Below, piece by piece: positions 4,224 to 20,350 of a DNA stretch of 37,555 nucleotides (positions within the stretch are counted from its first letter, which is position 1; every line of letters starts with the position of its first letter). The position numbers and the translations under genes are program-made. Where the stretch lies: contig JAMOOV010000129.1 in NCBI GenBank assembly GCA_027065125.1, positions 1-37,555 on the forward strand, given 5' to 3'. The notes beneath the pieces are model-generated. The model worked only from the letters and a program-made list of their open reading frames with translations, did not search any database and was not told the origin of the DNA. The stretch is from Campylobacterales bacterium. Its GTDB lineage: Bacteria > Campylobacterota > Campylobacteria > Campylobacterales > JALSKU01.

Positions 4224-5261
4224 TTACTCTTCTAAAACAGATAATATCAAATCTTTTTCTATATCATCAAGCATTTTATAGTTACCTATATGGTCAAGCA
4301 GGATAAATTTTATCTTTTGGTTGCTACTTTTTTTATCAAGAAAAAAAGTTTCGTAAAAATGTTCCGAATCGACTATATCGTAGCTAACGGGTAAATCATA
4401 TCTTTTTAAAAGTTCATAAACCCTATCAAATTCATCTTGGTTTAAAAGTCCAAGTTTCATGGCTAACTTGTTGGCCAATACCATACCTATAGCCACTGCT
4501 TCACCGTGAAGATATTTTTTGTAGTTTGTTTCATTTTCTATCACATGGGCAAATGTATGTCCATAGTTGAGTACGGCTCTGATTCCAGCCTCTTTTTCAT
4601 CCATAGAAACAACTTTTGCTTTGATCTTTATGCACTCTTTGATAGCTTTTACTAAATTTTTCTCTTTATATAGACTGTTGTTTTCGAGCCATTTGAAAAA
4701 ATCCCTATTAAAAGTTAGAGCCATTTTTATCATTTCGGCTACTCCGGCACTAAACTCTCTTTTTGGAAGTGTTTTTAAAAAAACTGTTTCGCAATAAACG
4801 GCTTTAGGCTGATAAAAAGAGCCTATAAGGTTTTTGCCGAATTTATTATTTACTCCTGTTTTACCCCCTACACTGGCATCAACTTGAGAAAGTAGAGTGG
4901 TTGGAATTTGGATAAAGCTTATACCTCTTAAGAAAATTGATGTTACAAACCCTGTCATATCTCCCACTACTCCACCTCCAAAGGCTATGAGAATCGATTT
5001 TCTATCAAGTCTATGCTCATTTAATCTATCGAGTATAAACTCTATAGTGTCAAGATTTTTATACTCTTCACCATCGGGGATAGTAACTATATATAACTCT
5101 TTTGCTGATACTTTATCCAATAAACTTTTTAAATGAAGTCCTGATACTTTTGGATTTGTTATGATGGCAACTTTTGAATCAAATTCTAAATGTTTCAAAT
5201 CGTTGATAAAAATTTTATAACTTTTATCATTTTTTTCTTCTATATTTATATCTACTATCAT
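4224..5261 (-). CDS. aroB: 3-dehydroquinate synthase
   Basis: 345 residues, normal length. It converts DAHP to 3-dehydroquinate, the second step of the shikimate pathway. NAD-binding GGGVVGD (about 95-101), the [11 protein letters not shown] signature (126-136), and zinc ligands E176 (AGVAEMIK), H235 (NYGHTFAH) and H252 ([10 protein letters not shown]) are all present, so it looks fully active. Start ATG is supported by AAGGAC about 5 bases upstream, within the 10-base gap after the TrkA-like gene. Second gene of the operon; the mtaB start follows six bases after its stop. Confidence 0.95.
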
Positions 5262-5271
5262 CTTTGTCCTT

Positions 5272-6681
5272 CTATTTTTCTTCGCCTATCGGCATAAATA
5301 CTTGATATAAGTTTTCAAGTTTGTAATGTAATTTTTGAAAATTGGTTGTAAAAAGTGAAAATATATTTGCATCTTTTACATCTTTATCAAAAGGTATAAA
5401 TTCAATAGCATCACTTCTACTTTTTAACTCCATGATGGGGTTGTTTTTAGATTTGATGATATTAAAATGCCTATTAAACATTGCAGATAGATTTTTAAAA
5501 TGTTGAATAAGTTCCTCATTTTTACTTAAATTTTCCGGATCATAATCATACAAATCTATATCAAATCCAAGTTGAGAAGATATATCAAATATAGTTGCTG
5601 TTATTTTTTCCATTTCAAGACTGTTTTGAGGGAGTAGTACACTTTTTTTTATCTTGCTAAAGTCATAATTTCCAACTTTTAATATAGGTATTTTAGCATC
5701 ATAAAGTTGTGTTTTATATCTTTTAAATATTTTATTATTGACTACCATAAGACCAATATTTGCTATCTTTAAATCCTCTTTTAAAACTTTTTCAAAATCA
5801 CTTTTTTCATAGTCTATAAAAACTCTTGTGGATCCGGTATTATAACTCTTTATCTTATTAAAACATTTGGAATAAGTCGGATTTATAACTTTAATGATAA
5901 GTTTTTGATTGTTTATCATTGAGTGCAATAAAAAAGCATTATTTATCATATTCATTATCTCTTTTTCGCAAGACATAAGCATATCTATAAGTATATAAAT
6001 ATTTTTGCCATATGGAGAAGGAAAAGAACCAAATTCCTGTTTTATACTTATATCTACTCCTCTTAAAATATTTGGATCGCCTATAACCAGCAAGACATCA
6101 TTAGGTAATATCATGGTTGATTTGGTCGGAAGGATTAGAGAATTTGCCCTATATATTGCGGATATTTTCCAGTTTTTTTGCTTTATAGCGGAAATATGTC
6201 TATAAACATAGGGGCTGCCAAACGGCACACTTATCTCCATAATTTCACCGATGCCAAGACCTACATTTTGTGCTATAACGGAAACATTTGGTAAAAAGTC
6301 AAAAAGTCTTGAAGTGAGTATTTCTCCTGCACTCAACAAGGATAGATGATTATCTTCGTATTCTAATTTCCAGTTATCCAGTATGATTATATGCACATCC
6401 TTGCTGAGAATTCTGATATTTTTATATGTTTCTTCGGTATCAAATTTCTTTTTCATGACAATAAAAACTTCAACTATGCTATCATTAAATATAGATCTAA
6501 GTTTTGAAAAACTTGTAGGATCAAAGTTAAAATATTTAACTTGTGTAGCCTTTTTATCAGTTATTGTCTTTTCGTTGTAATAAACAACTTTATAATTATT
6601 GTCTGAAGATAGATCTGTGCAAACTCTTTCTAAAAATTGTTTTGCTACAATACCATCTGCTATTATTAATATCTCTTTCAT
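5272..6681 (-). CDS. TrkA-like protein with RCK-C domain (COG3400 type)
   Basis: 469 residues, cytosolic, no membrane segments. The N-terminus ([20 protein letters not shown]) reads like a Rossmann TrkA-N/RCK-N start but without a clean GxGxxG. Residues about 145-215 match an RCK-C/TrkA-C module: [20 protein letters not shown], then [11 protein letters not shown], then [10 protein letters not shown]. The remaining C-terminal half is family-specific. Proteins of this type sit beside tgt and aroB in Helicobacter (HP0282); RCK modules usually gate potassium channels or transporters by nucleotide binding, but no partner channel is encoded here, so its target is unknown. It is the first gene of the six-gene operon. 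No ribosome binding site precedes the ATG; instead a TATAAT ends six bases before it, which suggests a leaderless transcript. Confidence 0.7.
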
Positions 6682-15939: not shown

Positions 15940-17465
15940 GATATTATAACCCGTTGAGGGTGTATAGTGTATTTTCTTTTTTGCTGACCCTCTATCTTAT
16001 CATCAAAAAAAAGGAGAAATTTCTCTTTTTTAAACCTTTAAAGCCAAAAGAACTAAAAGAGAGTATTTCCACTTTGGGTGCGAGTTTTATCAAATTGGCT
16101 CAAGTTTTGGCAACAAGATCGGACTTTTTTTCGGAAGATTATTTAAGTGAGTTAAAAGAGTTGCATGATAAGTTGCCTCCGATGAAAGAGTTTGAATTTG
16201 ATGATGTTTTTAGGGATGCTTTTGGTAAAGGCGATATATTTGAAAATTTTGAAAAAGAGCCTATAGCATCAGCCTCTATAGGTCAAGTCCATAAAGCTTA
16301 TTTGAAAAATAATACAAAAGTCGCAGTAAAGCTTAGAAGATACAGCATACAAAGGCAGGTAAAAGCGGATATAAAAATAATAATTTTTTTCAATACCCTT
16401 TTTAAACCGCTATTTAGCACATATACTAAAAATTCCATTGATGCGGTAATAAGTGAATTTAGTAAAATGATAACAAAAGAGGTCTCTTTTATATCAGAAC
16501 TCCATAACCTAAAAAGTTTTACTCAAATGTATAAAGATAGTGGCATCAAGTTTCCTATACCTTTTGAAGAGTATTGTAGCGACGGTGCTATTGTGATGAG
16601 TTTTGAAGAGGGATTTAGGTTTGATGATAAAGCAAATCTCTTGAAATACAATATAGATTTTAAACCTCTTATCAGGAAACTTGTCAATTTTTATACTGAT
16701 CAAATGCTTATAGAAGGCTATTTTCATGCCGATCCGCATCCCGGAAATCTTTTGGTTTCGAAAGAGGGGGAGCTTATACTTCTTGATTTTGGTATGGTAA
16801 AAAGAGTATCCAATGAAACGAGAGTTGCCATCATCGAACTTGTTAAAGCCGCTCATGAGCAAAACTATGAACTTTATATAAGTGCCAACAAAAGACTCGG
16901 AACTATTGCATACGAAGCTCCAACATCCGAACTTGCCGAATTTACCTCTAAAATGTTTGCTATATTCGGTGATGAAAATTTAAGTAGCGAATCTATGCAA
17001 AAATTGGCTTTTGATATTCTAAGCACCACTAAAGATTTGCCGTTTAAATTGCCAAGTGAAGCTATATATATACTAAGAACAAGTGCCATCATAGAGGGTC
17101 TTGGAACGACATATATAGAAAATTTTAACGGTATAAAAGATATACTTCCAATTTTGCAAGAAAATATCCCCAAAGCTCTTGGAAGTAAAAATTTTACCGA
17201 ACTTATGGTGGATACCGTTAAAGATACTCCATTTTTTATCCAAAATGTTCAAAAATCTATGCAACAAATCTCAAAAGGAGAGGTCGGAGTTGTACTCTCA
17301 AACGATCAGCTAAAATGGTTGGCTAAAGAGATAAAAGAGTATATAAAACCTAAAATACAAGGGTTTTTGTTGATAGCTGCTGCATTTTTTATTTTGTTAT
17401 ATTCTTCCGATTTGAAACCTCTTTCATTGGTTTTATTTATTTTGGGGGTTTTTAAAACCTTCTAA
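15936..17465 (+). CDS. UbiB/ABC1/ADCK-family atypical kinase-like protein
   Basis: 509 residues. Protein-kinase-like fold with the family's Ala-rich loop and signature ASASIGQVHKA (about 111-121), catalytic HADPHPGNLL and metal-binding LLDFGMV. The N-terminal KxGQ helix reads FIKLAQVLATRSD, with Ala in place of the usual Gly. Two hydrophobic segments end the protein (LLIAAAFFILLY and LSLVLFILGVF), anchoring it in the inner membrane. Family members bind ATP and help lipid or quinone metabolism; in E. coli UbiB acts in ubiquinone synthesis, but Campylobacterota use menaquinones, so the role here is open. Start is a TTG overlapping the previous stop; AAAGG is closer than usual. It converges on the Csx20-like gene with a 14-base overlap. 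Confidence 0.85.
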   Translation: MRYYNPLRVYSVFSFLLTLYLIIKKKEKFLFFKPLKPKELKESISTLGASFIKLAQVLATRSDFFSEDYLSELKELHDKLPPMKEFEFDDVFRDAFGKGDIFENFEKEPIASASIGQVHKAYLKNNTKVAVKLRRYSIQRQVKADIKIIIFFNTLFKPLFSTYTKNSIDAVISEFSKMITKEVSFISELHNLKSFTQMYKDSGIKFPIPFEEYCSDGAIVMSFEEGFRFDDKANLLKYNIDFKPLIRKLVNFYTDQMLIEGYFHADPHPGNLLVSKEGELILLDFGMVKRVSNETRVAIIELVKAAHEQNYELYISANKRLGTIAYEAPTSELAEFTSKMFAIFGDENLSSESMQKLAFDILSTTKDLPFKLPSEAIYILRTSAIIEGLGTTYIENFNGIKDILPILQENIPKALGSKNFTELMVDTVKDTPFFIQNVQKSMQQISKGEVGVVLSNDQLKWLAKEIKEYIKPKIQGFLLIAAAFFILLYSSDLKPLSLVLFILGVFKTF

Positions 17466-17832
17466 ATATCTGATGAACAAATTCGCTTACCTTGATAAGT
17501 CTATTATCTTTTAAAAATTCTCTTACTACTCTTTTATTTGTCGAATATATCGGGATGAGATTTAAATCTTTGGTAAAGTTTACCATATGACAAGTAGCTC
17601 CGAAATCTCCTTGGATAAGCACCATATCTTGAGGTTTTGCATTTTGCATCAAAAACTCTTTTATCGGATCAAGCCAATCATCAATATATTCGATATCAGG
17701 AGGTATTTGAGACCAGATATCTTGTAAATCTTTTGGAAGATAGATAAAAATTTTTATACCGAGAGATCTTTTTGCATCCTCTGTCTGCAAAGGTGTCAAT
17801 TTGTGAGAAAACAGTAAAAACATCTTTCTCAA
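17452..17832 (-). CDS. csx20: Csx20-like CRISPR-associated small protein, not next to any cas locus
   Basis: 126 residues. The sequence MRKMFLLFSHKLTPLQ, then DAKRSLGI, IYLPKDLQDIWSQIPPD, and VLIQGDFGATCHMVNF (about 71-86) followed by LIPIYSTNKR matches the Csx20 family as I remember it. Csx15, Csx16 and Csx20 are small Rossmann-like proteins associated with type III CRISPR systems and proposed to degrade cyclic oligoadenylate messengers (ring nucleases). No CRISPR array, Cas10, Cas7-type or CARF effector is visible in the window. The start TTG overlaps the WYL gene stop as TTGA, so it is translationally coupled; an ATG at 17823 is an alternative. It is the last gene of an operon with the WYL regulator and a 40-residue protein. 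Family assignment is from recall and needs a profile search. Confidence 0.65.
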   Translation of the reverse strand: MRKMFLLFSHKLTPLQTEDAKRSLGIKIFIYLPKDLQDIWSQIPPDIEYIDDWLDPIKEFLMQNAKPQDMVLIQGDFGATCHMVNFTKDLNLIPIYSTNKRVVREFLKDNRLIKVSEFVHQIFRRF

Positions 17833-18797
17833 AATAGTGCCTTTTTCAAATCTTTTTCAAACTCATCTTGCAAACTTTTTGGGGAGAGTATCTTGATATC
17901 GGGTATCCATCTTTTTATGAAAGGGAGTATTTCAAGCGGCTGGGTAAACTCCAAAGAGAACTCGATTGAGCCGTCGTGATTTGTGCCTATATACTTTTGA
18001 GAGGGATAAAACTTTTTCATATCCTTTTGAAAGTATTTTGCTATCTTGGGTGAAGCTAAAAGTCTTGTTGTTATCTTTTCCACTCCATAAAGAGTTAGAG
18101 AGTTTTGAAAAGTTTTAAAAAATTCTATATATTTTTCATTTATGCTTTTTTGGAAAGAGTAGTCTCTGACTTTTTTTATATTTTTGATAAAAGAGATTCT
18201 TAAAAACTTTAGTTTGCTGTTTTGATCCTCTATGGCAATATACCAATTGTTATCGACAAAGACAAGCTTTAAACATTTGGCATCTTTATATCTCTCAAGC
18301 TCATCATAAAGATACTCTATATCCCTGTATTCGTTATTTTTAACGGCGATTTTAAGCTCGTCAAATATCTCTTTTATCCCTTCACTGCTAAACTCTTCAA
18401 AAGGATAGGACTTAAATATAAACATCTCCTTGTCCTTGACGGATATCTTTTGTAAAGCTTTTTTAGTATCCTCTTCAAGCTCTTTATATGCAATGCTTTC
18501 ATCCTTTAACCAGTCAAACAAAAAGCCTATATTGCTATCTTTCAACTTGATAAAGTTCATTAAAATATCTGAAGCTTTTACCATTTTGTAGTAGTTTGTT
18601 TTTGATCTTTTGACGGTTATGATATGTCCGTATGTCATCTCTATATCTTTTAAATATCTCTCAAGTGTTTTATAGCTTATGCCAAATTCATCAAGAAGTA
18701 CAGGGTCTTTTGGGCTTATCTCTCGTCCTTCAAGAAGATACTCCATCAGCTTAAATATTGCAACCACTTTTTTATCCGTTTGATTTGTTTTTGGCAT
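17829..18797 (-). CDS. WYL-domain transcriptional regulator
   Basis: 322 residues. The N-terminal winged helix-turn-helix (about 10-70, ISYKTLERYLKDIEMTYG) recognises DNA. The WYL domain (about 145-225) has the ligand-pocket strand LVFVDNNWYIAIE, in which WYI stands for WYL, followed by KFLRISFIKNI. The C-terminal WCX extension ends IKRWIPDIKILSPKSL. WYL regulators bind nucleic-acid-type ligands and often control CRISPR and other defence genes, typically as repressors relieved by a signal. It lies between a 40-residue small protein gene (its ATG starts one base after that stop) and the Csx20-like gene (4-base overlap), so it probably regulates its own operon. A dead relative lies at 1-310. 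Confidence 0.88.
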   Translation of the reverse strand: MPKTNQTDKKVVAIFKLMEYLLEGREISPKDPVLLDEFGISYKTLERYLKDIEMTYGHIITVKRSKTNYYKMVKASDILMNFIKLKDSNIGFLFDWLKDESIAYKELEEDTKKALQKISVKDKEMFIFKSYPFEEFSSEGIKEIFDELKIAVKNNEYRDIEYLYDELERYKDAKCLKLVFVDNNWYIAIEDQNSKLKFLRISFIKNIKKVRDYSFQKSINEKYIEFFKTFQNSLTLYGVEKITTRLLASPKIAKYFQKDMKKFYPSQKYIGTNHDGSIEFSLEFTQPLEILPFIKRWIPDIKILSPKSLQDEFEKDLKKALF

Positions 18798-18798
18798 C

Positions 18799-18921
18799 TT
18801 AATACTCCGCTTTATAGTTTTTTCTGCTGTATATCTTTTTGTTTTTGATAACTCTTGTAGTCGGATTAAATCCCCATACGACTCTTTTTCTCAGTTTTTT
18901 TACAGTTACTTTTGTTTTCAT
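18799..18921 (-). CDS. Small basic protein, 40 residues, first gene of the WYL-csx20 operon
   Basis: A small open reading frame of ATG-39 codons-TAA. It begins MKTKVTVKKLRKRVVWGFNP, continues TTRVIKNKKIYSRK and ends NYKAEY. There are 15 Lys/Arg and a single acidic residue, with a tryptophan-centred core (VVWGFNPTTRV). It has a textbook start: GGAG seven bases before ATG, and a TATAAT (18952 to 18947) suitably upstream. Its stop is one base before the WYL ATG. The W-x-x-NP-x-TRV, then KK-x-Y-x-RK pattern resembles small basic proteins I believe are widespread and unannotated in bacteria, but I cannot name a family. Nucleic acid binding is likely from the charge; nothing more specific is supported. 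Confidence 0.72.
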   Translation of the reverse strand: MKTKVTVKKLRKRVVWGFNPTTRVIKNKKIYSRKNYKAEY

Positions 18922-18936
18922 CTCAAATCTCCAAAA

Positions 18937-18996
18937 TTTTTAGAAAATTATACTCCAAATTTTAGACAAAAACCGTCTTTTTAGAAAGTTTTTAGA
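18937..18996 (-). promoter_or_regulatory. Promoter of the small protein-WYL-csx20 operon with four TTTTAGA repeats
   Basis: The -10 box TATAAT (minus strand, 18952 to 18947) is 25 bases before the small protein ATG. Four copies of TTTTAGA (plus-strand sense) lie at 18938-18944, 18960-18966, 18979-18985 and 18990-18996, three of them extended to TTTTTAGA, spaced 22, 19 and 11 bases apart, close to whole helical turns. They cover the -10 to -50 region and the start of transcription. This is the layout of an operator array, and the WYL protein of the same operon is the obvious candidate to bind it. The repeats are seen; the binding is inference. Confidence 0.5.
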
Positions 18997-19093: not shown

Positions 19094-20350
19094 TTAAACT
19101 TTGGCAAAATAATCCCAAAAAGAGAGTACCTCTATATCATCGATTGTTATATTTTCGTTATCAAAAGTGAGTAAAATCTTTTTATCAACATCAAATCTCA
19201 ATCTTTTCAACCCATTTATCTCTCGCTCTAAATTTTGTTTATTTAGCATATAACAAATCTGCATAGCGATAACTTTTTGCTCTTTTACAACGATAAAATC
19301 ACACTCAAGCTCTTTATTGTAAAAATAGATTTGATAATTTTGTTTTTTAAGTTCGGTATATACTAAATTTTCAAACAATTTCCCGAAATTTTTACTAAAA
19401 TTAAATGAAATTTGAGCTAAAAGACCATTGTCGTTGACATAAAATTTTTTCTTGCTTTTTATCTGCTCTTTTAGTTTATACGAGTATTGTTTAAGTTCGT
19501 TCAATAGATAACTATCTTTAAGAATTTCTATATATTGTTTGATTGTATTATCATTTGATCCGATAGCTTTTGCGAGAGAGTTGTATGAATATAGATTTGT
19601 GGCATTTGAGATAAAAAAATGGGCTATCTCTTTAAAACCTTTTATATCTCTAATGTTATGTTCCGATACACAATCTTTCAGGATAATAGTTTCATAATAA
19701 TTCACAAGTAACTCTCTTTTGTATTTTGGCTCCTTCGTAATCTCAAAAAAACTACCGTATAGCATCATCTCTTCTACCAATTTAAGAGCTTGGATCTTTT
19801 TATCTATAAGCTCAAATCTATTGGTTATATTGTATAATTTTAAAATCTCACTATACGAAAGAGGCATTACTTCATCTTGTAAATATCTGCCACTCAAAAG
19901 TTTTGTGTATTCATTATCTAACAAAGAGGCATTTGAACCTGTTATGAATATTTTTTTTATCAACTCATTATCATATATGGTTTTTATAAATTTCTCCCAT
20001 CTTTTTACATTTTGAATCTCATCTAAAAATAGATATGCCACTTTTACATCCGTTATCTTTTCGCTCATCTCTAAAAGCTTATACAAATTTTTACTATCAC
20101 AGCAAATCTCGGCAAAAAAAGGATCATCAAAATTTATATAAAGTATCGATTTTGGTTCTATGTGATTTTCCATCAAATAGTTTATCAGAAGTTTTAAAAG
20201 AGATGTTTTACCGCTTCTTCTAATGCCTTTTACAACTTCTATCTGTCTTAAATGCAATTTATCGACAACATTGTCTAAAATATCTCTTTTTAAAAGATTT
20301 TGGTATCTTTTTTTCCAGTGAGGATTGTGTTTGATTATCGTACCTTCCAT
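19094..20350 (-). CDS. AAA ATPase with DUF4143 domain (AAA_14 family)
   Basis: 418 residues. Walker A KGIRRSGKTSLLK (about 41-53), Walker B AYLFLDEIQNV (about 104-114), and sensor region FITGSNASLLDNEYTKLLSGRY are those of the AAA_14 / DUF4143 class. The C-terminal half carries the DUF4143 nuclease-like fold (YVNDNGLLAQISF, LFENLVYTELKKQ, IYFYNKELECDFIVVKEQKVIAMQICY), where E and D plus a later Q-x-C replace the common E-x-D-F-V and Q-V-x-Y pattern. These solitary ATPases are abundant in archaea and anaerobes, often exchanged horizontally, with no settled function. It stands alone, with its own promoter, palindromic operator and terminator-free surroundings, between the WYL operon and rmuC. 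Confidence 0.85.
   Translation of the reverse strand: MEGTIIKHNPHWKKRYQNLLKRDILDNVVDKLHLRQIEVVKGIRRSGKTSLLKLLINYLMENHIEPKSILYINFDDPFFAEICCDSKNLYKLLEMSEKITDVKVAYLFLDEIQNVKRWEKFIKTIYDNELIKKIFITGSNASLLDNEYTKLLSGRYLQDEVMPLSYSEILKLYNITNRFELIDKKIQALKLVEEMMLYGSFFEITKEPKYKRELLVNYYETIILKDCVSEHNIRDIKGFKEIAHFFISNATNLYSYNSLAKAIGSNDNTIKQYIEILKDSYLLNELKQYSYKLKEQIKSKKKFYVNDNGLLAQISFNFSKNFGKLFENLVYTELKKQNYQIYFYNKELECDFIVVKEQKVIAMQICYMLNKQNLEREINGLKRLRFDVDKKILLTFDNENITIDDIEVLSFWDYFAKV

Follow-up and report, generated by a model that had tools for sequence, protein, structure and literature searches.

The minus-strand open reading frame (ORF) at positions 18799..18921 of the window (the whole 37,555-nucleotide stretch of DNA analysed here) was confirmed as the gene of a conserved, basic 40-residue protein, which we assign to a putative, unnamed and unstudied accessory family of defence operons with relatives in phages. 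The family, its conservation and its linkage to defence loci were traced through genome comparisons, and from these we infer the function proposed below.

The 40-codon ORF and its operon

Translation of the ORF gives MKTKVTVKKLRKRVVWGFNPTTRVIKNKKIYSRKNYKAEY, a basic protein with a lysine plus arginine count of 14/40 (15 in the preliminary description), with no membrane-spanning segment in its sequence and with a core motif at residues 13-34 that reads R-V-V-W-G-F-N-P-T-T-R-V-I-K-N-K-K-I-Y-S-R-K. A GGAG Shine-Dalgarno sequence (18929..18932, minus strand) is separated from the ATG by a 7-nt spacer and is preceded by an exact TATAAT -10-like hexamer (18947..18952, minus strand). Both were read off the sequence, the hexamer being suggestive only: no -35 match was found for TATAAT at 18952-18947, and the promoter was absent from a simple two-hexamer sigma-70 scan. 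The stop of the peptide gene (18799) falls one base ahead of the ATG of the following WYL gene (18797). The ORF, the spaced GGAG, the -10 hexamer and the stop-to-start distance had all been pointed out earlier and were confirmed on the sequence. The bare existence of a 40-codon ORF would be unremarkable, and it is conservation that establishes the gene as real.

The genome of origin holds a single full-length copy of the peptide. Translated genome searches recovered homologues, in frame and over the full length, from two congeners (identities of 74% and 58%) and from members of other families, and a profile search gave strong full-length matches in about 12/397 genomes of the class (~3%). Searching 84,980 species genomes with a Campylobacterota peptide alignment yielded 39 loci. 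Loci were picked by the peptide alone and not by their context, and weak matches (L006-L009 and L029-L042) were left out of the homologue count; distinct Campylobacterota loci numbered 35. In an alignment of 35 sequences R13, W16, P20, K28, Y31 and R33 (window numbering) were invariant and the phenylalanine nearly so, the motif common to the family being R-[VI]-x-W-x-F-x-P-x-[TS]-R-x3-[SN]-K-K-x-Y-[ST]-R-K. Relatives of the peptide on Arcobacter plasmids carry the annotation "hypothetical protein".

Comparison of the window gene with that of congener G005 (the window-L010 pair) gave pS 0.76 and pN 0.155, comparison with L063 gave pS 0.71 and pN 0.167, and 16 non-overlapping peptide pairs pooled gave pS 0.60 and pN 0.15 with changes by codon position of 108/83/247, all pairs having been picked through protein similarity, which biases dN downwards. 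Synonymous sites being nearly saturated with changes and the protein little altered, the gene is under strong purifying selection. The preliminary description had proposed a genuine small basic protein, easily missed, to be checked by a search for homologues and by the spread of substitutions over codon positions; both checks bore it out, the homologues being in frame over their full length and the changes concentrated at synonymous sites.

The gene that follows, on the same strand, encodes a WYL/WCX-domain transcriptional regulator (17829..18797, minus strand; PF25583 WCX, E 1.4e-7; PADLOC WYL, E 5e-18), and its end is overlapped by a gene of the cA4 ring-nuclease family, csx20 (17452..17832, minus strand; NF040559, E 3.3e-44). 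Csx20 has been confirmed as a cA4 ring nuclease (PMC12409355). An AAA_14/DUF4143 ATPase gene (19094..20350, minus strand; PF13173, E 1.7e-31; PF13635, E 1.1e-25) lies 173 bp upstream of the peptide gene and is a candidate operon member only. ATPases of this kind were seen near the peptide in 7/35 loci (the window, L051, L053, L054, L066, L077 and L083), most of them type III CRISPR loci that also carry Csx20 or CARF genes.

In congener G005 the gene order is peptide-WYL-Csx20-RAMP-Cas10, the RAMP protein being Cas6-like by eye. The type III-B system of the window's own genome sits on a separate contig, C47, with CRISPR repeats, CARF-PDDEXK, DHH-CorA, Cas10b, RT-Cas1 and Cas2 (Cas1 and Cas2 identified by eye), and for this reason the window operon looks like a regulatory module that serves this system from elsewhere in the genome. 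The DHH-CorA protein (C47, locus L117, 5783-7990) has 735 residues with DHH-type hydrolase and CRISPR CorA domains according to PADLOC, adjoins Cas10b, CARF-PDDEXK and RT-Cas1, and is reminiscent of the CorA-linked SAM-AMP signalling described previously (PMC10600005). Because a CorA-type protein is encoded on C47 and a cA4 ring nuclease in the window, this genome may use two signal types.

Defence-locus surroundings in Campylobacterota

Neighbours within 7 kb of the 35 Campylobacterota loci were clustered, and representatives were identified with PADLOC and Pfam. A defence marker (WYL, CARF, Cas, Csx20 or HisKin/iREC) lay within 7 kb in 33/35 of these loci and in 0/23 non-Campylobacterota or viral loci, counts for which the cluster models were built from the same loci and the identities checked against independent libraries. 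Type III CRISPR neighbourhoods accounted for about 21/35, with recurrent linkage to cas and CARF genes (CARF-HEPN Csx1, CARF-PDDEXK, Cas7 III-D, Csx20, Cas6, Cas1, Cas2 and RT-Cas1), and there the peptide gene often lay between the CARF/WYL/Csx20 genes and cas1-cas2, shortly ahead of cas1/cas2; the Cas1 match in L050, 5.3 kb off, may be spurious. HisKin-conflict genes were present in eight loci, seven of these with iREC-domain proteins, and vWA-type systems in two. The peptide gene was usually on the same strand as its nearest neighbours and often closely spaced from or overlapping them.

This linkage to defence loci is far above expectation. A WYL gene was found within 7 kb in 23-24/35 loci against ~0.6% of sequence expected for a random place, a figure taken from the WYL count in 150 class genomes that treats the 35 loci as phylogenetically independent, which they are not. 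Among the class genomes, Cas10 co-occurred in 6/12 peptide genomes versus 34/385 others (p 4e-4), and the peptide is optional, since it was present in only 6/40 Cas10-positive genomes.

WYL regulators are known from CRISPR and defence loci (PMC4012209) and are recurrent neighbours and probable operon partners of the peptide, to which they show no sequence relation. Across the loci the peptide gene was variously upstream of WYL, downstream of it or without any WYL gene, none being detected within 7 kb in L015, L046, L051, L056, L061, L063, L066, L067 and L071, where some contigs are short. The preliminary description had placed the peptide at the head of a WYL-csx20 operon, which is true in the window and did not extend to the family, where other defence types and stand-alone copies were encountered; the specific partnership with the WYL regulator was not upheld, as the peptide recurs with type III effectors, cas1/cas2, HisKin-conflict/iREC and vWA genes, sometimes without WYL. 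It is tied to several defence-operon types rather than to WYL or Csx20 in particular, and from its genomic linkage we regard it as a putative optional accessory gene of these operons in Campylobacterota. Literature searches returned no paper that mentions Csx20 together with WYL, no paper text with the peptide's motif strings and, for HisKin-conflict/iREC, only unrelated uses of the terms.

Csx20 and the other type III ring nucleases resemble the peptide in being encoded by small accessory genes within these operons, and phages, too, make use of ring-nuclease families (PMC12409355). They differ in being enzymes of more than 100 aa with a CARF-like fold, and ring nuclease identity was rejected for the peptide, which at 40 aa and with no fold in the AlphaFold2 model falls short of a CARF-like/Rossmann fold of ~100 aa or more.

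Several neighbouring genes were recorded in passing. A protein of 95-129 aa that matched no Pfam or PADLOC family (L054:8161-8520, L071:10637-10933, L073:11531-11893, L083:7168-7557, L097:333-647 and L072:4288-4575) came right after cas1-cas2 in 5/6 of these Campylobacterota loci and is possibly a further CRISPR-associated gene. A coiled-coil-like protein of ~150 aa recurred next to the peptide, or close to it, in CARF/WYL loci (L051:4159-4599, L074:3206-3685, L083:4950-5393 and L073:7731-8210), Pfam giving it only a sub-threshold YafO toxin match. In the type III CRISPR locus L054, two ORFs after the peptide (5199-6508) resembled, by eye, DarT and a macro-domain protein, and were located between the peptide and cas2-cas1-cas2. 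Three loci have an outer-membrane beta-barrel gene immediately adjacent to the peptide gene (L014:5439-5930, L055:10098-10589 and L053:2061-2558), and such genes lie within ~7 kb of it in L015, L046 and L047.

Relatives outside Campylobacterota

Scans of the 40-residue peptide against Pfam and NCBIfam matched no family, and no sequence relative was found in the PDB (best chance match E 0.75, with the A2 profile); the lack of a relative among solved ribosome structures is still compatible with ribosome binding. Residues 7-35 of the window peptide aligned to positions 9-37 of phrog_2701 (E 6.7e-5), a phage family of unknown function and 46 positions, whose profile was also matched by 9/10 further members, bacterial and viral, at E <= 0.01. 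Profiles of the Campylobacterota, Clostridia and phage members aligned to one another with hhalign probabilities of 98-99% (98% with phrog_2701), and no shuffle reached the lowest real score in any of three comparisons (0/14,000, 0/5,000 and 0/14,000), so the likeness goes beyond a shared basic composition. The window peptide and phrog_2701 share the core R..W...P.T.V...K..Y.RK; the phage members of phrog_2701 differ in their N-terminus (KRKTIGKMS) and in being located among virion or unrelated genes and not near CRISPR genes. The window copy is a bacterial homologue in a WYL-csx20 operon and is not phage-encoded.

The phage members belong to large Bacillus phages and to Herelleviridae, among them Kayvirus, Twort and Brochothrix phage A9. 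Further relatives occurred in Clostridia, other Firmicutes and Omnitrophota, standing alone in unrelated surroundings, with 3/245 genomes (~1%) carrying the peptide in one sampled clostridial class. The clostridial and phage neighbourhoods (tail genes, PRPP synthetase, a sigma factor and groES) offered no clue to function. The family is an unnamed, lysine/arginine-rich one of ~40-60 aa that spans Campylobacterota, Clostridia, Omnitrophota and large Firmicutes phages.

Structure model and possible roles

AlphaFold2, run with an alignment of 35 sequences, returned an extended chain with no fold (pTM 0.16, pLDDT 70), from an alignment that is shallow and a 40-mer query for which folding on a partner would be missed. 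The model suggests that the peptide is intrinsically disordered and folds on a partner, which seems the most likely behaviour because it combines 14 K/R and invariant Trp, Pro and Tyr with no hydrophobic core and no predicted fold; the same features fit binding in an extended form.

Our preferred reading, with a probability of roughly 0.4, is that of a disordered basic family whose Campylobacterota members now serve as optional defence-operon accessories that bind RNA or the ribosome to tune the response. Peptide genes would have been co-opted there as accessories of anti-phage operons of the type III CRISPR, HisKin-conflict/iREC and vWA types, and the peptide would probably be co-transcribed with the defence operon. 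The R..W.F.P..R...KK.Y.RK segment would then fold on a negatively charged partner, possibly the ribosome or its rRNA or else an RNA belonging to the defence complex, and the bound peptide may tune the defence response in one direction or the other. An RNA or ribosome partner was proposed in view of the breadth of the family, whose members in phages, clostridia and several defence types have no protein neighbour in common; no RNA-binding family or structure matching the peptide was found, nor a PDB relative, so that the proposal draws on composition and breadth. Of the earlier suggestion of an RNA/DNA-binding cofactor or antitoxin-like partner of the regulator, nucleic-acid binding is plausible, and the WYL partnership and the antitoxin role found no support.

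The main rival to RNA or ribosome binding is protein docking, in which the peptide would act as an adapter or inhibitor on the operon's regulator (WYL, iREC or a CARF effector) and set its threshold with no need of nucleic acid. The peptide is often directly beside WYL, CARF-HEPN or iREC genes, its invariant W, P and Y with the nearly invariant F resemble a docking epitope, and it is disordered alone in the AlphaFold2 model; however, the loci share no one protein neighbour, and the Clostridia and phage members have no WYL, iREC or CARF partner nearby, so we hold this somewhat doubtful. It is unlikely that the peptide originated as a phage takeover or counter-defence protein, of which defence operons keep a copy as decoy, trigger or brake. 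In favour of this are the more than 300 staphylococcal and related phages with a homologue, the further homologues of Bacillus/Brochothrix phages, the near confinement of Campylobacterota copies to defence loci and the precedent of ring-nuclease families that serve both host and phage, but the staphylococcal phage copies lie among virion genes and not in an anti-defence cluster, and no Campylobacterota phage bearing the gene was found.

A small protein that associates generally with the ribosome or RNA, and whose placement in defence operons is fortuitous, would account for the stand-alone clostridial and Omnitrophota copies in ordinary surroundings; it is distinctly improbable given the strength of the defence linkage in Campylobacterota and the patchy distribution noted above, which speaks against a core gene. 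Membership of a toxin-antitoxin pair, as antitoxin or toxin, is very improbable: the peptide is small and basic and in some loci near HTH, HipA-like or AbiEii-like genes, but no constant toxin or antitoxin partner recurs across the 35 loci, as would be expected of a type II antitoxin, and neither a DNA-binding fold nor a membrane-spanning segment is predicted. That the peptide is a regulatory leader of the WYL gene, as its place just ahead of that gene in the window might suggest, is strongly disfavoured, as the amino-acid sequence is well conserved across phyla and the gene is not confined to one operon's 5' end, being also found downstream of WYL, without WYL or as a separate gene in phages.

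Beyond the preferred reading of an RNA- or ribosome-binding accessory, we entertain as a long shot that a minimal disordered protein common to large phages and unrelated defence operons is a shared regulator (brake, trigger or decoy) through which defence would detect or withstand the seizure by phages of a single host target, such as the ribosome, attacked by the phages' own copy. Surveys of CRISPR accessory genes depend on called genes, by which 40-codon ORFs can be skipped, and the small size of the peptide puts it within reach of simple genetic and biochemical tests. Because it recurs under strong constraint across type III CRISPR, HisKin-conflict/iREC and vWA-type loci, with relatives among phages, it may represent an overlooked control element that these forms of bacterial immunity share.
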